Assembly (NCBI GenBank): GCA_020055645.1 | Contig: CM034546.1 | Location: forward strand, 88,102,001 to 88,166,000 | Direction of reading: 5' to 3' | Source: Tomocerus qinae | Lineage: Eukaryota > Arthropoda > Collembola > Entomobryomorpha > Tomoceridae | DNA length: 64,000 nucleotides | In this document: in pieces, positions 1 through 48,900 of the stretch | Numbering within the stretch: position 1 is the first letter of the stretch | Layout of the letters: the number at the start of each line of letters is the position of its first letter | The notes under the pieces: generated by a model | Seen by the model: only the letters and a program-made list of their open reading frames with translations | Database searches by the model: none | Told to the model about the DNA's origin: nothing | Position numbers and translations under genes: made by a program

Positions 1-3000
1 GGTTAATGAGGGGCATATTTTAGTTGGGACAGTAAACTCCCTAGGAGAAGTTCTGATTTACAACGTTGATTTGCAAGGTATGCTCTTTATTTGGTTAAAT
101 TTAATTTAAAGTTTACCTTTTTGACAATTTCATTCCTTTTTAAATTCCAGCCGGCAAAATGGAATTGTTTCAACAAATTGATATCAAAAAGTCTGTCGCT
201 CTTGATTTTGTATTTTACCAATTTGACGAAACTGATAAAAACAGTGTAGTATTCGCTCTAGGAATGGACACTGGTTCAGTGGCTATTTACAGTAGAACCT
301 TAGAAACATCTACTTTGAAACATGAAAACACGTTTTCTGTTGTGTGTACTCTAAACAAGCATGAAGATTGGGTACGGTGCATTACATTTGTCGCCTTAGG
401 TAAGCAAATATGATTTTAAAAAATTCCCTGTTTTGGGAATTTTTTTCATTGTCTTTGTATGTAAAATGTATTTTTTAAAAATAGAAAATGGAGACGTTTT
501 GATGGCATCCGGGGGAGAAGACTCTTTCATTGCTGTCTGGCGGTTTACGAAAAACAAAGCAGAAATTGATGATGAATTTGAATTTCAAATTCACGAATTT
601 CAAGAGTACCGAATTGTGTTTGATTCAATTATCATGGGACATGAAGGATGGATAAATTCGTTGCATTGGAATTCGCAAGGTTAAAATTGACGTATTTAAT
701 GTAATCTATATCCTCTTATCAACCCAGCCACGTTGGCTTGGTGGAGCACTAAGTCGTCTGACTACTCACTGTGTGCTTCCACTGCCAATTCGAGTTTTTG
801 GCGGGGTGAATTGGCCGAGGGCTGTTTTAGGCAAGTATGTGAGTTGGAAATGTGGAATTAAAACAATGATAAAGCACGAAACCCGCAACTGCAAGGGCGA
901 TCATAAGGATACCTCGTATGAATGACTACGAGAGTAGATTGGATCACCTGTCTTTGTTGGCAAGTAGACTTCCGGTAACAGTTCCAGAGTCCCACAACAG
1001 TGACTCGTAAATGACAGCCTTGTATTAGGCTTCTCGGGTATTAATAATAATTAAAAGCAATGCCAGTGTTCTCTATGGAATGTCCTGTATCTAAGCATTA
1101 TTATGTTGTGCTTTGTGATTCTAGTCTCTAAGTCTTTTGACTTTGACTTTTATTGTATAACTAGGCTCCCAGCATTGTGGGACTAAAGTTTTAAAAGTAG
1201 GCATCCATAAAAACTTGGCAGAATTAGAATTATTAGTAATTATTAAATAAAATCATTGTCAACATTTGGTTTATTTTCGAAATATCATAAATTATAATAT
1301 TATCCCAATATTATGTTTTGATGTTATAATTATTTTGAAACGACTCATTTCGGTGGTTTAGAGGAAGTGGGCATGTACGTTTTGCTTTTAAGGAACGTGC
1401 ATATATTATGTGTGCATTTTCTTAGGTTCTCCCTACCATACTAGGTGGGTGATTTTTTAAAGTGTACGATTATATATATGACTAGCCGGTCACAGGACCT
1501 AGGCCCTGTTATAAATAAAGCTAGTGTGTATTTCGGGGGCAATATTGTACGATGAGGAGAAAGTATTTCAGATGCATAGCTTTTTCTAATTGAACTTTTC
1601 ATGGTTTCTCATTTAGTGGGTCGGCATCGGAGGTAGAGATTTTACATTGATAGGTGTAGGAACTTTGTTTTAGAAAACTGTCCGTATCTCCGGACAGGAA
1701 GGAGATACTTGGCAAGAGTATTGTTTTGTATCATAATTTCAACGATGTAAATGGCCAAATTTTAAATTTTCCCGCACATAAAATAATAGGAACCTTAAGT
1801 GAACCTAAAGCTGGAAATATGTGAATACAGAACGCATGAACTGCTTTGTTATGAAATATTGAGTTGGGATTTACCACATTTAGGTAACGTTTAAGATTGA
1901 GGTCTGCTTAGCTGTGTTATCAGAGTGGCAAATTAATACACGATGATATAAACAAACATCCCTACGGAATTTTTCACTGCGCAACTCGAACAAGACGATT
2001 ATACTATAGAATAAGGATACATAGCTTTTTCTAATTGAAGTTTTCATGGTTGTTTATTTGGTGGGTCGGCGTTGGAGTTTACATTGATAGGTATAGGGAT
2101 TTTTGTTTTAGAAAACTGTCCGTATCTCCGGACACGGAGGAGGTACTTGGCAAGTGTATTATCTTGTATCATAATTTTAACAATGTAAATGGCCAAATTT
2201 TAAATTTTCCCGCACATGAAATATTAGGTTTCTTAAGCGACCCGAAGGCAGGAAATTTGCATACAGAACGCATGAACTACTTTGTTATGAAATACAAGAC
2301 ACGGTATAATATTTAATTGAAGGAAAGAGTTTCAACTACCACATAGCACAACAGTGACTTTAATGATTTTATCATCGCGCAAGCGTGTATATGCAAGTTC
2401 AATCTGGATGGAATTTAGCTTCTTTAGCAAATAAACCAAATATATATTTAAACTATATAAATAATCTATATGAAACATTGAGAACACTACAATAAAAATC
2501 ATATCACATGGCTAGCCCTAAACCGCAAAACATTTAAATGCTCCTATGAAGATAGGGTTTTAGTCACTGTATGTAAATATATTGCAGTTCAGTTTAAAAG
2601 ATGGCGGAATAGGACTCCGCTCATGACTCCCTCCAATCACAAGAACGAAAATTTTTAACATTAACGGTATCGGCTTCATATAGATTATTTATAGTATATA
2701 TATTAATAAGTTTTTATATATATAGCGTACATACAAACATCCGTACACACAAACATTCCTATCACGTTAATATTATAGTCATGATAGTACAAGACGGCTA
2801 GTATAAGTAAAATAAGCTTATTTCCTTACATAAATAATATTTCCTTACATAAATAATATTTCCTTACATAAATAATATTTCCTTACATAAATAATATTTC
2901 CTTACATAAATAATCTTTCCTTACATAAATAATATTTCCTTACATAAATAATATTTCCTTACATAAATAATATTTCCTTACATAAATAATATTTCCTTAC

Positions 3001-6000
3001 ATAAATAATATTTCCTTACATAAATAATATTTCCTTACATAAATAATATTTCCTTACATAAATAATATTTCCTTACATAAATAATCTTTCCTTACATAAA
3101 TAATCTTTCCTTACATAAATAATATTTCCTTACATAAATAATCTTTCCTTACATAAATAATCTTTCCTTACATAAATAATATTTCCTTACATAAATAATA
3201 TTTCCTTACATAAATAATATTTCCTTACATAAATAATATTTCCTTACATAAATAATCTTTCCTTACATAAATAATCTTTCCTTACATAAATAATCTTTCC
3301 TTACATAAATAATCTTTCCTTACATAAATAATCTTTCCTTACATAAATAATATTTCCTTACATAAATAATATTTCCTTACATAAATAATCTTTCCTTACA
3401 TAAATAATATTTCCTTACATAAATAATATTTCCTTACATAAATAATATTTCCTTACATAAATAATATTTCCTTACATAAATAATCTTTCCTTACATAAAT
3501 AATCTTTCCTTACATAAATAATCTTTCCTTACATAAATAATCTTTCCTTACATAAATAATCTTTCCTTACATAAATAATATTTCCTTACATAAATAATAT
3601 TTCCTTACATAAATAATATTTCCTTACATAAATAATATTTCCTTACATAAATAATCTTTCCTTACATAAATAATCTTTCCTTACATAAATAATCTTTCCT
3701 TACATAAATAATCTTTCCTTACATAAATAATCTTTCCTTACATAAATAATATTTCCTTACATAAATAATATTTCCTTACATAAATAATCTTTCCTTACAT
3801 AAATAATATTTCCTTACATAAATAATATTTCCTTACATAAATAATATTTCCTTACATAAATAATATTTCCTTACATAAATAATCTTTCCTTACATAAATA
3901 ATCTTTCCTTACATAAATAATATTTCCTTACATAAATAATATTTCCTTACATAAATAATATTTCCTTACATAAGTAATATTTCCTTACATAAATAATCTT
4001 TTCAACATAAATAATATTTCCTTACATAAATAATCTTTTCAACATAAATAATATTTCCTTACATAAATAATCTTTTCAACATAAATAATATTTCCTTACA
4101 TAAATAATATTTCCTTACATAAATAATATTTCCTTACATAAATAATATTTCCTTACATAAATAATATTTCCTTACATAAATAATATTTCCTTACATAAAT
4201 AATATTTCCTTACATAAATAATATTTGCTTGAGGTTGAGTGATATAGATACATTCTGTCAACCGATATAATTTCTATTATAGGGGAATTGCTTTCTTGTT
4301 CCAGCGATCAATCAACCGTTATTTGGCAAAACCTAGGAGATGTTTGGATGGAAAAGTCCCGGTTTGGTGTCATGGGAGGTCAACTTCCTGGAGGGTTTGG
4401 GGCCAAATTTATTAATAATATAACTGTTTCTTGGGGATTTCAAGGAGCTATCCAAATCTGGACTAAGTCGGATGTATCTACTGTTCTGTTCTATTAAAAT
4501 TTATTTCCGATTTACTCTATAATGCGAACCTTGTAAATTGATTTTAATTTTACCATTGAAGGATGACGAGTGGAATGTCCAACCAAGTGTGACTGGACAT
4601 TTTGATGCAATCGCCGATTTGGATTATCATCCGAAAGGCTACTACGTAATATCCACAAGTGATGATCAAACAACTCGAATTCACGCCCCATGGGGTCCTA
4701 GTCGCTGGCATGAAATCGCCCGACCCCAAATTCATGGTCATGATTTGTATGCGGTGAAGAGCATCGGTAATTTGATAGTTTCTGGAGCCGAAGAAAAAAT
4801 ATTGCGAGCTTTTCAACCCACAGAAATTTTCATTCGTAACTTGGAAGTTATTAGTGAAATCTCTGTTGATTTCAAAGAAAGTATGTAAAAATTTTTAATA
4901 ACAGTTGTGAATTTGTCATACTTCCAGAATTTTAATTTTTCAATTATTTCATTTAGTTGCACCTTCAGCATTTTTACCTGTGTTGGGTCTATCTAATCAG
5001 ACGGAGGCTGCTCCAGACTCTTCCGTTTTAGGTGACACTTCCATTGAAGTTAGATTAGATGAAGACTTTATTCGAGCACAGACATTGTGGGCAGAAGTGT
5101 CAAAATTGTATGGCCACGTGTATGAAATTTCATGCATTGCTACATCCCCCGTAGACAAATTAATTGCTAGTGGATCACAGGCCAGCAAACCCCAGTTCGC
5201 AGCAATAATTTTATGGTAAAGTTCCGCTAAAAATTACTGTAAAATAAGAATACGTCCTAATACCCCCCGAGTTCGAATACCCCCCTATTCGAATTGTTGA
5301 TCAATGTGAACATTACTAATAACTACAGATACATAATAATTATTATAAGAATACGGGCTAAGATTCTTCCTGAAGTATCTGGCCTATAGATAGATTGGAT
5401 ACAGTAATTCTGCTGAAGGAGAGTTCGCAATTCAGTGTCACTTTCTCTCAATTTCACATTAAGCATCCCCAGCTATCATTCCACGAACATCATGTGCTTG
5501 TTGTACATACCCTGGTTAAAGTTCGGTAAAAGTTAATAAACCATGTCCAATGGATGTATAAAGTAGCAGAGAGGGTTTGCCACGTTAATTGACATTTTTC
5601 CAATGACCTTTTGACCCAGATGACTTGATATTGATCTGACCTAACGAATGACCTTTCAAACGAGCTATTTCATGACGTTTTACAATGTCGACAGCAAAAG
5701 TTACACCAATTTTTAGTTTTTGAACCACGCCCACAGGCAGGGGTGTGTCCGATGTTAACCATGTTCAAACTTAACATATTGCCTTTCGAACGAGCTATTT
5801 CATGACGTTTTACAATGTCGACAGCAAAAGTTACACCAATTTTTAGTTTTTGAACTACGCCCACAGGCAGGGGGTGTGTCTGATGTTAACCATGTTCAAA
5901 CTTAACATATTACCTTTCGAACGAGCTATTTCATGACGTTCTACAATGTCGATAGCAAAAGTTACACCAATTTTTAGTTTTGAACCACGCCCACAGGCAG

Positions 6001-17286: not shown

Positions 17287-18664
17287 ATGGCGAAACCTGT
17301 ACTTAAGTCACAGTTAATTAACTCTATTGTTAAAGACACTTTAACCGCTATAAAAAACAACGACAATTCAGAAGAAAGTGACGAAATTTTTGACAATGCG
17401 TTTGATGAAATTGAAGCCATTTATATGCATCGGTATTTGACACCCCGAACAAAAGTAAGCCAAAACTAATGACAAGGTCTATTTAATATTTTATATCCAC
17501 TAACTTGTTACCTTGTATTTTTTTTATTTCTGGTTTTACTTGTTCTGTTCTGATTCAATTTCAGGTTTTGAAGTCGTCTGAATGGTGGGCAAAAATTCTT
17601 CCTAACTGTAACGACAAATATTTTAAACAAGAAATGCGAGTCACCAGAATTGATTTTGACAAGATGCTTCATTTAATTGAAGAAGACAAAATCTTTTCAC
17701 CTCGCCAATTACCTGTTAGCCACCAACTTGCAGTAGCACTAGCCCGATTTGGAGAAAGTGGAAATGGGAGTTCATGGTTAAAAAAAGCAGCAAAATTTTC
17801 ACTGGGCGAAGGAACCGTGGGGGACTGTACCAATCGTATTATAAAAGTTTGTTTATAGTTTATGCAAAGCTATATTAATTTATGGTTATGATTATTGACT
17901 TATTTGTATGTAATCCCGATTAGGCTCTGATAAACATCAAGAATGTTTATGTACAATGGCCGGATATTGACGAACGAGAAAACATTTGTGCCGACATGGA
18001 ATCTAAGCTACCTAACTGTATCGGTTATCTTGATGGTACGCACATTAATTTAGAACACGCCCCAATGGACGACCCAGAATCTTATTTTTCACGGAAGCAG
18101 CGCTATTCTATTCAGCTCCAAGGAGTAGTAGATAACCAAAAAAGATTTATTGATGTTGTCGTCGGTTATCCTGGGAGTGTCCACGATGCCCGAGTATACG
18201 CAAATTCAGCTATTGGTATTAATCCAACACAATTTCTGTCTAATGAACAATGGATAGCTGCAGATTCAGCTTACTCCTTATCTCCTTACATAATCACTCC
18301 GTTTCGCAAAAATTGCAATACAATTTCAGATTATGAAAAAAAAATATTTCAAAAGTATTTCTCGCGTTATCGCGTATTAGTAGAAAATTCTTTTGGTATT
18401 TTGAAAGCCATTTTTCAAAGCTTGCGCGAATTACGGATAAGAATTAATAAAAATAAGGGTCACTTAAAAGCATGTGAATGGGTATACGCCTGTATTGTGA
18501 TTTACAATATCATCATGCCTAATGATGAAGAATACTTTTTAGAAAATGTAGATGATACGGAAGAAGACAACGAAGAATATGCAGTTGAAAACACAAATAA
18601 TGAAAACGCTGAAATAAAAAGAAAAAATTTGCTGGATTGGATCATCAGAAATAAATTAGAATGA
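17287..18664 (+). CDS. PIF/Harbinger DDE transposase (HARBI1-like)
   Basis: Three exons, 17287-17454, 17565-17846 and 17924-18664, all in phase 0, give 396 residues, a normal length for HARBI1-type nucleases. Catalytic-core signatures are in place: IGYLDGTHINLEHAP (first Asp), SRKQRYSIQLQGVVD, GYPGSVHDARVY (second Asp) and RVLVENSFGILKAIF (Glu). The N-terminal part contains VALARFGESGNGSSW, corresponding to the helix-turn-helix-like segment seen in this family. No stop or frameshift interrupts it. It could be an active or recently active transposase; domesticated HARBI1 is less likely because its partner gene and flanking inverted repeats are still present. Confidence 0.93.
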
Positions 18665-39900: not shown

Positions 39901-42900
39901 ATTATGTGCTTAGCTGCGTTTTAGAATTACGGCAAATCAACACACAGAAGTACAAACAAACCTACGGAATTAGACTTGACTGTAGCCGTTTATTTATAAG
40001 GATTTCAATCAACAAATTTGTTGCATTTTGCGATACTAAAACTGTACAATTGCAGATGTAGAAAATTAAGTTTACAGTAGTCGTTGTTTTTAAATACGAA
40101 ATATATTTTAATAAAAGGAATTAATAATTATTTTGATAAAATTATTTAAATGCTAAAATGTCTACGCTTACATGCTCTTTAACAGAGTTTTAGAGTCTTA
40201 TTATATTGAAAAAACTTTTTATAGTTCATTCCAAAAATCAAAAAAAAATTGCTTAAAAAAATTTTGTGCCAATTCAGTTAAAAACGGAAAATTCCGTAGA
40301 TTTGAATTAATATAACGATAGTTTGTAGAAAAAGGCAATCTTAATGCATCTCTTCCGAGTTCCATTTTAGCTGGCTAAAAATGATTTTGAATAGCCAGAA
40401 ATGAAATACCTAATTAGCTGATAAGTCAAAAAATAATTATTATTCTTTTAATTTTCAACCAAAACAATAATGACTTTCTTAGTTCCATGGCTCTATTTAT
40501 TTTATTTTTGGCAATAGACATTTCAATATATTTTGTCGCCTAAAATAGACTTTTTTGTCATTTTATCAAAACGCATTTAGTTGGACACGCTACACAAGAC
40601 TTTCCTACCACACCTTGATTTAGTATTGCATATTTGGGAGTTGTTATTATAGGGCCTCGCGCGAACATTTCGCAATATAGAGCCGCCACTGACTCCGGGA
40701 CTGCAATATCGTCGCGGATGTCCTTCGCGTTGGTCCCCCGGCTCCCTGGGCGCCGAAGGCCCCCGAAAAATTTTTTTGGGTCACGGATTAGGTCAGCCAA
40801 AAAGTAAGTTTTAGGCGCCCCTCTGGGTGCCCAAAGAAGAATGTTGTTCCGAAAGTTGTGTATGACCGATTTGAGTGACACTTTCTCAAAACTCGATCAA
40901 TATTAGTTAATTGGCCTGCCAAATATAAATGAATAAGGAAAACGAATGATTTCCTATTATCCAGTTATACATGGTTATACTACTGTACAATAAAATACTG
41001 CTAGTATAATTTATGACATGACACCATAGCAGGCAATATATTACATCAGTCCAATCTTTCACTTTCAAATACTCTAGGTGTTGTAAGTCACTGCAAATGA
41101 GCTGAAAATTTGCATTATTGCCGAAAGTTCCCCATCCAGATGCGTCCAAATGCACGAGATTGGGGAGGATTCCTAAGAAACGTGAAAACCATTTGGAATG
41201 TCCAATGAAATTAGCTCGATGACTCTGTTCATACATTTTCTGATTTCCTCCCATTTCTAGTTTTTTAATACGATGACGGAAGACACGTTGCTCAAACGGA
41301 TTAAGAATGATCGGACCGTCGCACCATGTGGTATTAGTACAATACAACTCCTCCAACCGATTCAGTTTTGCCAAGAAATCAAGATCGTTGTAGAAACTAT
41401 CAGGTCCAGAAACGCTTAGACAGCGGAGAAAGGGCAAGGAAATATTCAGAAATACTTTTTCACTTGCTGAGGGAATATCTTCCAGGTAAAGTTCTTCGAG
41501 AATGTTCCCTTTATTGCTGAGGAAATGAACGAGGGCGTTAACGCTGAAACGGCAGGAGTTGAGGCGAATTCCTGTCAAATTACAAAGCGCAACTGTGTCT
41601 CCAAGAGCAATCAAATCATCCGACGATAAATTGCTGTTTGAAAAGTCGATGAACCTTAGTTGTCCAGTGTAGCCAAAGCGGTTGACGTAGTTTTGTATTG
41701 GTTCTATAGTTGTATTTAAATTGAAATGAAAAATTATGTAGATTGAGTATCATTTTCAACAATATAGCAAAAATCCAAATGTGTTATTAGAAGTATTATC
41801 GTTTGTTATAAGTTATAACTAAATACAATAAATTATTATAATACCATTTTATCAAGGTGCGTATATAGCAACCAACACCCGATTTATAACAGGTGACGAA
41901 CCAAGCCCATTTTTCCATTGAAATGTCAGGAATAATCTGCGGGACCAAATGGTCCCGGACTGTCCCAGCTCAGTTCGGTTGCTATAGGTAACAAGCTACA
42001 ACTAAGCTGGGACAGTCCGGGACCAAATGATAGGCTGGGACGAAGAACAAGCAACCAGACTTCATTTTAAAATTACTCCCCAATCCATGGCGACAATAAA
42101 GTAAAATGTTGATAAACTCGACATACTTTATTAAGGGTGCAGTTACTGAATTAGCCAAGAAAAAAATTTAAATACTAAGTTAGTTTCTAATGGTTCCCAG
42201 AATCTAAAATCTTCCACACAGACACTACTACTAGGTGCAGTATTAGAACTACAACCCCTCATGCAGCGCAGTAGTACCAAACGGAACATTAATTTCTAAA
42301 TGAGGTTTATTCTAACCTGTGTAGACGGAAAGTTGCGTAATATGCATTATTACAAATTATTTCTTTAGTATTTTAATTTAATGGTTAGTTTGGAGTGATG
42401 GATGATTTCCTATCAAAAATATGTCTTTTGGTTCAACATTATTCTTGCATTTTTCGGTTCAGTATTTTAAAACTTTGTATAATTTTGCGGATATAAGTAT
42501 AATGGTCTGAATCACGAAATACCATAAAAACACAACCAGAAATTAAATTAAAATTGCAAAATAAGTAGAAGCCAAAATAAAACTGCTATTTCAATTTTAG
42601 ATTCGGCTCTAATTATTTCGTAAAGAAGACTGTTTGTTCTGATACAAGGATAACTAATTAAATACAACACAGGGTTATTACTTATAATATCCCATATCCC
42701 CCATCGCGCTCCGAGTAGGAATTAGAAAGCTCGCTCACCCATTTGTAAAGAACGTTTATGCTGATATGATGGGCGCAAAGCGAGTCAAAAATACTTCGAA
42801 AACAATAGATTTAAAGTTCTAAAAATTCTCACTTTCCAAATTTTTGGATTCACTTCCGAAAAGAATGTTTGGAAATAAAAATTCCAGAGTAATAAGAATC

Positions 42901-45900
42901 GCATTGGTGATTTTTTCAGCAATTTTTATAAAAATGTTCAGAAAAATATTCTTTAAAAAATGGCCAAGAATGGCTTGTTTCTGATCTGTCTGAGAGCTGT
43001 ATTAGAGATCCAACCTGTAGAATTCCGACCTTTATTCGATTTTTTTTGTAATTTAACCGATTTGTGACGTCACACGGCGACATTTCCTATACATTTCCAT
43101 GGGGCAGAAAAATATTTTAGACAAAATTATTTTAATTTTTTGACATGCACTTTTATCACGCCCCATGCAAATGCATAGGAAAGTCGCCGTGTGACGTCAT
43201 AAATCGGTTTACATACACAAAAATTCAGAAGTGCCTGGGAATTCCAAACCTATTTTATTTCTACTAGCCTTGGTAGAAAACGGTATTATAACATATTATT
43301 AGTAATAACCATATGTACACCCCTGAACAATTAAGAAAATTGGAAAAAAATCTTGAAATTAAGAGTTCAGGAATATTTGCGTTTGGTAATCACTCGTCTA
43401 AGTGACTGCGCCCTTAATTTTTAATAAACTCTGGTTGTTGATTTTGTAATGTAAACAAAATTTTAAAATGAAGTCTGGTTGCATGTTCTTCGTCCCAGCC
43501 TATCAAATGGTCCCGCAGATTATTCCTAAAATAAAGGCTTGATTCGTCACCTTTATTTATTGTTACAATACGCAAACATGTCTGTACAGAAAGGATAGGA
43601 GATTTATTCTTGCTATCCTTCTACGCTAATAAAGTTTCCATAGGGTTAGATTTGTCGCCAAGTCAGTCTGTGTTAAAATGGGTTTTAACCTGTGAAAGCT
43701 ATGTCACACCCTACTGCCCCGTACGAAAGTCATTTTGGATATGATCTCTATGCTGTTTCCATAGGGCTGTAAAAAACAGATCAAGTTGGTCAATCTCCAT
43801 TTAAGTTTACAAATTTGATCTGTTTTTTACAGCCCTATAGAAACAGCTTAGAGATCATATCCAAAATGACTTTCGTACGGGGCAGTAGGGTGTGACATAG
43901 CTTTCACAGGTTAAAACCCATTTTAACACAGACTGACTTGGCGACAAATCTAACCCTATGGAAACTTTATTAGCGTAGAAGGATAGCAAGAATAAATCTC
44001 CTATCCTTTCTGTACGGACATGTTTGCGTATTGTAACAATACATGCACCTTGCATTTTATGTATTGTCAAAACCAAATCACTTCTTCTGTATAGATAGGT
44101 AGGATGCAATCCTTTATGTACTAAATTAGTTTCCATAGGGTTAGATTTGTCGCCCGTCCGGTGTGTGTTAAAATTGGTTTTAACCTGTGAAAGCTATGTC
44201 ACGCCTTACTGCCCTGTACGAAAGTCATTTTGGATATGATCGCTAGGCTGTTTCCAGTTTCGGGGCAGGAATGTGAAAAACATTTAAAATTGGGTAATGG
44301 TTATTTTCAGTCTGCACTCTGTACATGTTCAAAAAAATTGCTTTTTTATTAACCTTAATTGTAATTATCAATTATTGAAACGTAACTCCTTACAAATTAA
44401 TAATAAAAACATGAAGCTATGGATGATGGATAATTGACTGCTTGAATACGACAAGGGGGTTAGATATTTTCATTGGATAAATACCTTAGCAACCCTAATA
44501 AGTTATGTGTATTAAAGTAGATGGTGTTTGTTTACAATTTATTTACAAAAAACACCCTTGTCGTATTGAACCAGTCAATTGTTGTTAGAAGAAATCAATG
44601 AAACATTTACATTTTACGTATTTAAATGAGAATACAGAATATAGCACTGCACTTTGAAATAATTGTGGAGGTCATTGTTGCGTCACATTGGATGTTGTTG
44701 CCAGTAAGTCCAGGAAATAAATACCAAAGACAGGGAACGAAAGCGGTGAGAAGGCCGAGTTAAATCGCAATAAGATACCACATATTTAGGGTTGATCCAC
44801 ATATTACGTAATCAAAAAATGTAGCCAGGATTCCAAAAATGTAAGTCCCAAAAAAATCGGTCTTATCTTTCGGGAGTAATTAAGCCAGAAGTAAAACATT
44901 TTTTAACATGCATTTAGATAGGCCCGGTTGCTATGAAGGCTTCCGTGGTGAGCCTCCTTAATAAATAAAATTTTAGGCATTCGAATTGAATTTTTGATTC
45001 GAACTTATTATGATGACATATCATAGGGGAGTCCGGCAAATGTTGACAGTCGATGACAGAGGGAAAAGATGGTTCTAAAAACGGCTACATTTTTTGATTA
45101 CGTAATATGTAGATCAACCCTAAATATGTGGTATCTTATTGCGATTTAACTCGGCCTTCTCACCGCTTTCGTTCCCTGTCTTTGGTATTTATTTCCTGGA
45201 CTTACTGGCAACAACATCCAATGAGACGCAACAATGACCTCCACAATTATTTCAAAGTGCAGTGCTATATTCTGTATTCTCATTTAAATACGTAAAATCT
45301 ACATGTTTCATTGATTTCTTCTAACAACAATTATCCATCATCCATAGCTTCATGTTTTTATCATTAATTTGTAAGGAGTTACGTTTCAATAATTGATAAT
45401 TACAATTAAGGTTAATAAAAAAGCAATTTTTTTGAACATGTACAGAGTGCAGACTGAAAATAACCATTACCCAATTTTAAATGTTTTTCACATTCCTGCC
45501 CCGAAACTGGAAACAGCCTAGCGATCATATACAAAATGACTTTCGTACAGGGCAGTAAGGCGTGACATAGCTTTCACAGGTTAAAACCAATTTTAACACA
45601 CACCGGACGGGCGACAAATCTAACCCTATGGAAACTAATTTGGCTGAATTTAGACAGCGGTGTCCCGTTTCCTTTGTTTCCTTCGTTTCCTGCGTTGCCT
45701 TCTTCCGTTTCCTACCTCACCGTTTCCTTCAGTGTTGTTTTAACCTCTCATATTTTCTCCGTTTCCTTTTTTCTGTTTAAATGTAATAAACTACTCTTTT
45801 GTTTCCAGCGTTTCCTTCGTTTCCTACAAACCTAATAAAATGCAGTACAACGCTAGTGTTTAAGGTTGTTTAAGCCCATTGCTCTGATCTAGGGGATTTT

Positions 45901-48900
45901 CTAGCATCTGCAGGTGGCAGAAAGTCCCTGGGGACTTTCGAGCACCCTTTTTCCATTTTCAAAATGTTCCCGAAGGCAGACTAAATATTTGTTGAATTTA
46001 AGCAGCGATACCTTGTTGTATATGTTGCCGATCACTATTTTCGCCTCTTTTCTGACCTAACCTAATAAAAGATAAACTATTTTTAATTAGGTTAGGTCAA
46101 AAAAGACCGACAAATAGTGACCGGTAACACCTTGTTGTATATGTTGCCGATCACTATTTTCGCCTCTATTCTGACCTAACCTAATAAAAGATAAACTAGC
46201 GATACCTTGTTGTATATGTTGCCGATCACTATTTTCGCCTCTTTTCTGACCTAACCTAATAAAAGATAAACTATTTTTAATTAGGTTAGGTCAAAAAAGA
46301 CCGACAAATAGTGACCGGTAACACCTTGTTGTATATGTTGCCGATCACTATTTTCGCCTCTTTTCTGACCTAACCTAATAAAAGATAAACTATTTTTAAT
46401 TTGGTTAGGTCAAAAAAGACCGACAAATAGTGACCGGTAACACCTTGTTGTATATGTTGCCGATCACTATTTTCGCCTCTTTTCTGACCTAACCTAATAA
46501 AAGATAAACTATTTTTAATTAGGTTAGGTCAAAAAAGACCGACAAATAGTGACCGGTAACACCTTGTTGTATATGTTGCCGGTCACTATTTTCGCCTCTT
46601 TTCTGACCTAACCTAATAAAAGACTTAAAAGATAAACTATTTTTAATTAGGTTAGGTCAAAAAAGACCGACAAATAGTGACCCGTAACACCTTGTTGTAT
46701 ATGTTGCCGGTCACTATTTTCACCTCTTTTCTGACCTAACCTAATAAAAGATAAACTATTTTTAATTAGGTTAGGTCAAAAAAGACCGACAAATAGTGAC
46801 CGGTAACGAGATACTGATTATTATTTTATGATGATGATGATTTAGAATTAATTTTAATGATAATAATCTGCCTTTGGGAACTTTTGGGAATTATAAAAAA
46901 GGATGATAGAAAGTCCCCTAGACGTTGCTCTGAGAATGGGCATTGGGTACATTTACATTGTATGGACGGTGTAGGAAACGCAGGAAACAAAAGAGTAGTT
47001 TATTACATTTTAACAGAAAAAAGGAAACGGAGAAAATATGAGAGGTTAAAAGAACACTGAAGGAAACGGTGAGGAAGGAAACGGAGGAAACGGAAGAAGG
47101 CAACGCAGGAAACGAAGGAAACAAAGGAAACGGGACACCGCTGTCTAAATTCAGCCACTAATTTAGTACATAAAGGATAGCATCCATACCTATCTATACA
47201 GAAGAAGTGATTTGGTTTTGACAATAATGCAATTGCAAATTATGAAAGTATTAGTATGGTGACCCGTCCTACGGACGGGTTTAATAACAAGGGGCTTGAA
47301 ATTTCAAAAAAAAATGAAAAAAAGTTTTTTAATTTGAATACTAATTTAAAACAAACTTCAAAAATTTATTATTTGCAAAAATGTTTTAAATTTAACCCTT
47401 AAACTTATGAATTTAACTCCATACCTGTTCGTTTACTAAGTTGAGAAATTTGGGTTGAAGTCTCCCACCCATGCTACACAATTTAGGAATATGAGTTGGA
47501 AGTCTCCCACTTATGTTCCCCCCTAGGAATATGAGTTGGAAGTCTCCCACTCATGCTACACCTTTTAGGAATATGAGTTGGAAGTCTCCCACTCATGCTA
47601 CACCAGTTAGGAATATGAGTTGGAAGTCTCCCACCCATGCTACACAATTTAGGAATATGATTTGGATGCTACACATTTCAGGAATATGAATTGGAAATAT
47701 CCCACTTATGCTACACCATTAGTGAATTTTATTTGGAAGTGTGAAGTGGCCCAATTATGCTACACCTTTTAGAAATAAGTTGGTCAAGCCGAGAATATAA
47801 TATTATTTATTTCCGTTTGTGTGTTGAAAGCCTGGATTTGTTTGTAACATTCTAACGCCACTGAGCCAAATTCAGGCTCTGAAATAATAGCACACATTAA
47901 TTTTTCCCTTTTATTAAGAGAGATTGCAAAATTTACCAATACTCCAGCGCGGCTTTAAGCGATTAAGTTGCACTCCTGCTCCATCTGGGATGCATGTAAG
48001 AGACAAATATCTAATGGTGAAGTGACAACAAAGGAATTGAATGAAATGTGACGAAAGCCAGATTCAATATTTTGGATTCAATAAATTTACCTCAAAGGAC
48101 CTCCACACCATTTGAGAAGACTCCAAAGGGCGTTATCTACCATATACGAACTCTTTTCTATAATGAGTTCTTTCATTCTCGTGAAAGTACCATTTCGAAA
48201 GTGAACTCCGAAATACTTTTTTATGAGCTCTGAATTAAATGAATACATTTCAGATGTCCAGGCGATTTGTAAATGCTCGAGATTGGAGCATCGAGCCAAA
48301 ACGTCAATGAACCCTGTTAGGGACATTTTAGAATTACGGATATGAAGATAAGTCATCGATGATCCATGCTTCAGCCAAAATTCTTGCTGTACAGTGTTCG
48401 ATATATCGTAGATGAAGGACGCTAATATTCTGAATTGAGTCCAAATAATTGGCGATTTATTAAAAATGTTCATTGCTTCGTTAAAGTTGTGCTTGATAGT
48501 CACGACAGGAAGATTCTTTTTCAGGCTGGGCTCAGAAGAAATAACTTCTAGCCATTTCTTGCATGTTTCGCGGACAGGAAGCAACTCATTCCAGTTAAAA
48601 TTTTTGAATATCGTTGCCAAGAACTGTACGCAATATGATAATAATTCGATCTTGCAAAAATAATAACTAAAAAAGTGATGCTTATATTATTAGGTAAATT
48701 CGTTATTATCAATAATTAAGGTATTAACCTTCTCATTGTAAATAACCAAAGATATTGAAGTGATTTCTTGTTCATCATTGGGGAAGTAAAACGTCACTCT
48801 GGATCGAGCCCTGGGTCGTGGATGTTTCTGGAGTGAAGAAATGAGAGTAGTCTCTACCGGAGAGCGATTAATTGTCACAACGACTGGAGTGTTTTCTACT

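Follow-up and report, generated by a model that had tools for sequence, protein, structure and literature searches.

The window, as the whole 64,000-nucleotide stretch of Tomocerus qinae DNA analysed here is called, contains a large palindrome with a different insert in each arm (Table 1). Minus-strand open reading frames (ORFs) flank it at 40907-41749 and 48087-48686, the latter with a weak F-box-like match below the cutoff, and the palindrome may lie in an intron. Elsewhere in the window, a plus-strand ORF (17924-18664) encodes a partial transposase with a DDE_Tnp_4 domain (E 2e-30), which we take to be of the Harbinger type. A smaller, near-perfect palindrome is found directly upstream of the main element, and 20 bp separate the TA flanks of the two. 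Over 125-127 bp, this neighbour resembles the main element's arms (about 90% alike), and the ends of both are also related.

Table 1. Palindromic element, its inserts and the neighbouring palindrome, in window coordinates
Feature	Position	Strand	Remarks
Neighbouring palindrome, 480 bp, near-perfect	43560..44039	.	arms 97% complementary; 12-nt loop; ends TA-TTGTTAC
Whole foldback (long-TIR) transposon copy	44064..47224	.	TA at 44062-44063 and 47225-47226; ends TATTGTCAAAACC common to other copies
Left arm (terminal inverted repeat, TIR)	44064..44826	+	about 620 bp without the MITE
AATT, MITE target duplication, left copy	44432..44435	+	from the arm alignment
MITE, 141 bp, ends GACTG/CAGTC	44436..44576	.	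family with variable A/T-only 4-bp target duplications
AATT, MITE target duplication, right copy	44577..44580	+	from the arm alignment
Loop between the arms, 256 bp	44827..45082	.	loop sequence recurs in other family copies
Right arm	45083..47224	-	about 620 bp without the 1515-bp element
Left copy of ACTAATTT, duplicated target of the 1515-bp element	45634..45641	+	from the arm alignment
1515-bp element, TIRs GGCTGAATTTAGACAGCGG	45642..47156	.	family with mostly 8-bp target duplications
Right copy of ACTAATTT, duplicated target of the 1515-bp element	47157..47164	+	from the arm alignment

The unit measures 3161 bp with its inserts and 1493 bp after subtraction of both, each with one of its two target copies. 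A preliminary description had placed its limits at 44052..47232; these are corrected here to the interval between the two TA dinucleotides. The arm length of 770 bp given there was also wrong, as it counts the MITE. The match between the arms was nevertheless seen correctly. When the left arm is aligned globally with the reverse-complemented right arm, two large gaps and a 1-base gap near 44101 appear; the arms are otherwise near-identical, with seven substitutions in 620 aligned bases. The arms have 447 20-mers in common, and none was found in any of 20 base shuffles. In other copies, one or both arms are extended inwards by the whole or a part of the loop sequence, which is reversed when it follows the left arm.

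The insert in the left arm has the features by which MITEs are known, being short and multi-copy, with terminal inverted repeats and target duplications. Twenty other copies were fetched and all are flanked by identical 4-bp sequences of five kinds (AATT, AAAT, ATAT, ATTT and TAAT). As these flanks vary between copies, the 4-bp duplication is real and does not belong to a fixed terminus. The right arm reads GGAT-AATT-GTTG at the corresponding site, with a single AATT and no interruption.

The insert in the right arm has TIR arms of about 175-184 bp that are 93% alike, with internal tandem repeats around 46004-46807, and belongs to a family with GGCTGAATTTAGAC ends. Among 15 other fetched copies of this family, ten have a perfect 8-bp duplication, as has the window copy, four are without one, and one was ambiguous. 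The length of this duplication makes hAT, or another superfamily with 8-bp targets, a candidate assignment for the element. The left arm carries the empty site at 44123-44130, where a single AAATTAGT is the complement of ACTAATTT. The alignment thus agrees with the preliminary description on both inserts, on their flanking duplications and on the uninterrupted opposite arm with one copy of each target. As the arms are inverted repeats, each shows the state of the other before insertion.

The arms are not restricted to this locus. The search space was the 334-Mb genome assembly in 115 contigs, in which the arm segment 44130-44430 gave 658 first-look candidates; the 40 places that were scored from these are 97-100% identical to it and include nine inverted pairs, the window's among them, seven of the pairs being less than 4 kb apart. 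A 23-base arm-core pattern matched 367 times genome-wide with at most two mismatches, and its reversed control not once. Among the matches listed, those to the arm pattern look clustered at about 82-88 Mb of contig 1, in the first 5 Mb of contig 2 and at the ends of contig 4. The same arms were found in 35 fetched stretches (L009-L028 and L033-L047); 24 of them match both arms, the window's own pair being counted as the 25th, and L016 and L017 jointly form one more pair. L014, L040 and L041 have flanking sequence in common, so the arm counts do not all represent independent insertions.

The ends of the copies are conserved as well. Of 31 ends located in L009-L028 and in the window, 29 have the terminus TATTRTY [TATT(G/A)T(C/T)]; the left ends of L011 and L028 do not. 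Ten elements have both ends resolved, and in each of them the flanks share no exact duplication longer than TA. The target duplication of 7-8 bp that marks the P superfamily was looked for in the same ten elements, and none has a duplication of at least 7 bp. Judged from the ends, TA may be either a target duplication or a fixed part of the element's termini; no empty site of the palindrome turned up. Long inverted repeats that make up most of the element, together with many dispersed copies, are the structural hallmarks of foldback or long-TIR DNA transposons. Since the same arms, loop modules and ends recur at many loci, the palindrome in the window is one copy of a dispersed, TA-bounded transposon family of the foldback type.

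The membership in a family bears on the claim of the preliminary description that the arms alone, without an outgroup, prove both duplications. Both duplications are real, but a filled and an empty arm cannot by themselves tell an insertion from a precise excision. The direction is settled because other copies of the family act as the outgroup. At the MITE site, 49 of the 59 arm segments from outside the window are uninterrupted, nine do not cover the site, and one (L011) is split by a different element of 1.7 kb, also at AATT. At the site of the 1.5-kb element, 50 of these segments are uninterrupted, nine do not cover it and none is split. Nearly all covered arms of the family are thus uninterrupted at both sites; emptiness is therefore ancestral and the events were insertions, not excisions.

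The junctions were also searched for in the whole genome. The filled MITE junction has a single exact match; at one to two mismatches there were 25 further matches against 17 for the control, and the five with one mismatch are absent from the 100 arm places listed of 144. The empty MITE site has 59 exact matches, one of which is the right arm of the window, and 197 matches with at most two mismatches, against 54 for the control. For the filled junction of the 1.5-kb element, one exact match was found genome-wide, with seven further matches at two to three mismatches and one in the control. A second arm pair already carrying the inserts, a finding that the preliminary description had named as contrary to its order of events, was sought through exact junction matches in the genome, and none was found. 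It is well supported that the two inserts are genuine transposons, that their target duplications are true ones and that they landed after the arms existed. The order "palindrome first, then the two insertions" therefore holds for the inserts being later than the arms. As the palindrome is a copy of a foldback family, however, this order comes with the family and reveals little about the locus itself.

The locus is thus very probably a copy of the foldback family that was later hit by the MITE in its left arm and by the 1.5-kb element in its right arm. The palindrome itself would most likely have been moved in trans by a transposase from another source. A MITE of a family producing 4-bp duplications inserted at AATT in the left arm, and an element of a family producing 8-bp duplications at ACTAATTT in the right arm, both most likely moved by transposases of two other families. 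That the inserts arrived after the palindrome copy had reached the locus is suggested by junctions that are unique in this one genome.

The last of these steps has the most serious competitor, namely that the inserts entered an earlier copy of the foldback element, which then moved to the present locus together with them. This is unlikely, as neither filled junction has a second exact match in the genome, even if differences between arms can predate the last move, as is suggested by the 15 of 20 elements in which an arm has some foreign arm nearer to it than its own partner. The assembly could also have joined two haplotypes head to head, each with an insertion of its own, and a different insertion in each arm is what two alleles might look like. 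Such an artefact is very improbable; the arms end at the conserved transposon termini of other copies, their outer flanks are not the same, and other inverted pairs with this layout exist in the genome.

The recurrence of the arms also weighs against the origin implied by the preliminary description, a unique local inverted duplication, such as by template switching during replication, with later inserts. Near-identical arms and a short loop would suit it, but the same arms, ends and loop modules occur in inverted pairs at many places with different flanks, which makes it hardly credible. Precise excision, by which both arms once had both inserts and each lost one, draws on the inability of a filled and an empty arm to separate the two directions. 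It is extremely improbable given that, among the covered segments of other copies, all 50 are uninterrupted at the 1.5-kb site and 49 of 50 at the site of the MITE, and that neither filled junction has a second exact match. Later insertion of two transposons into a foldback copy is therefore retained as the reading of the locus.

The seven substitutions between the arms have been compared with the majority state of the family. The left arm departs from it at 44108, 44402 and 44685, and the right arm at 44233, 44607, 44610 and 44798. At all seven differences one arm keeps the majority base, and therefore no conversion is seen. Two of the minority states are not strictly private, as the right-arm state at 44798 is found in 4 of 37 other segments and the left-arm state at 44108 in 1 of 49. 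States common to both arms of the window against the family majority are located at 44076, 44092 and 44821; they also occur in other copies, so that no change is private to the arm pair. The view that arm-to-arm gene conversion has not erased either insertion stands for the inserts and for the seven substitutions, but it covers only events that would leave a trace. Three of the seven substitutions fall no more than 40 bp from the MITE site (binomial P 0.05), and one is near the 1.5-kb site; at two of the three positions near the MITE, the arm that changed is the empty one. This clustering is not taken as a signal.

Of 20 elements with sufficient shared sites, 15 have an arm to which some foreign arm is closer than its own partner; 17 were counted at first, from which L014 and L040 were removed, as their only closer arm is that of L041, with which they share flanks. 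The margins are often of one to two substitutions, with 31-53 comparators per element, and the closer foreign arm is thus a tendency and not a proof. As such, it would run against a steady homogenisation of the arms. In the window, the partner is the closest full-length arm (7/620 substitutions, against 9/621 for the nearest full-length foreign arm), and one of 53 comparators (L033, 330 sites) is closer to a window arm than the partner on shared sites. The arms may already have differed when the copy landed, which makes their divergence an unsafe clock for the insertion; dating from arm divergence was dropped in view of the closer foreign arms in 15 of the 20 elements.

One-arm inserts are common in the foldback family. 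Besides the two inserts of the window, a scan of junctions recovered 11 more, which are spread over nine of the 35 fetched stretches. Nine of these 11 (in L011, L015, L020, L037, L038, L040 and L042) face a partner arm that is uninterrupted at the site; for the other two (L018 and L033), the partner is uncovered or split. In L011, each arm holds an insert of its own and the opposite arm is intact at that site, and the layout in which two arms serve as controls for each other therefore recurs. A locus that looked striking when taken singly, as a palindrome with internal controls, turns ordinary once the family is known; it consists of nested transposons in a copy of a foldback transposon, which are real and were correctly read in their details. 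In transposons with long TIRs, either arm serves the other as an empty-site control, so that a single genome suffices to read target duplications. Where an insert is private to one arm, conversion has not happened. It is conceivable, though doubtful, that this is an undescribed TA-bounded foldback family whose arms of about 600 bp escape mutual homogenisation although they mostly lie within a few kb of one another. If true, elements with insertions private to one arm would offer a ready-made test of arm-to-arm conversion at short palindromes.

Several known systems resemble the family of the window. Elements of the Tc1/mariner type use TA as their target, and TA was found at both ends of all ten window-family elements with both ends resolved. 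The window family differs in that no transposase has been seen in it, that its TA has the standing of a presumed and not a proven duplication, and that its arms are far longer than is usual for such elements. No transposase of the Tc1/mariner DDE/D type was found in the subset of internal ORFs scanned. Galileo, a foldback-like element of the P superfamily in Drosophila, is similar in its long inverted-repeat arms and in having many two-arm copies without a transposase segment. For Galileo, another transposon is described as having entered a single long TIR, from which it may have passed to the second, and the target duplications are given as mostly 7 bp (PMC4168063). In contrast, the flanks of the window family share only TA and its inserts stayed in one arm; the two are likened by structure and not by sequence. 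Tetris of Drosophila virilis is presented as a non-autonomous foldback element with a variable middle domain, TIR ends in common with a MITE and no autonomous copy found (PMC4079207). The window family is alike in these respects, a likeness by description and not by sequence, and differs from the 8-10-bp target duplications and the internal repeats of about 220 bp in the TIRs of Tetris (PMC4079207).

No transposase of the foldback family itself was found, and the coding copies that were met (L016/L017 and L021) look nested. The 13.3-kb copy L016/L017 (contig 2, about 752256-765585) encloses, in L017, an uninterrupted ORF of 1659 amino acids with Helitron_like_N and PIF1 domains. Four related Rep-helicase stretches (L029-L032, each of 9.9 kb) have no arm matches, so the ORF is interpreted as nested or captured and was rejected as a sign of an autonomous partner. 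The 5.5-kb insert of L015, which has an ORF with an RVT_1 domain, was likewise discarded as an autonomous partner; it is taken for a retroelement that sits nested within one arm.

In L021, two ORFs (2211-2819 and 2898-3734), one of them with a DUF7869 domain, belong to a 2.3-kb element inside a palindrome copy. A second copy of this insert is present in contig 2 (58737285-58739575, 2291 bp, 99% identical). Among the best 40 candidates scored, this copy matches exactly to the palindrome borders and no further, and the ORFs were therefore assigned to a separate nested element and rejected as native to the foldback family. Near its right end, the L021 element has 49 bp at 94% identity in common with the 1.7-kb, AATT-flanked insert of L011. 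Because of this common stretch, DUF7869 may be the transposase domain of a family with 4-bp targets. A search for the name DUF7869 found no paper in the literature collection covered. In the genome, 157 protein matches were counted.
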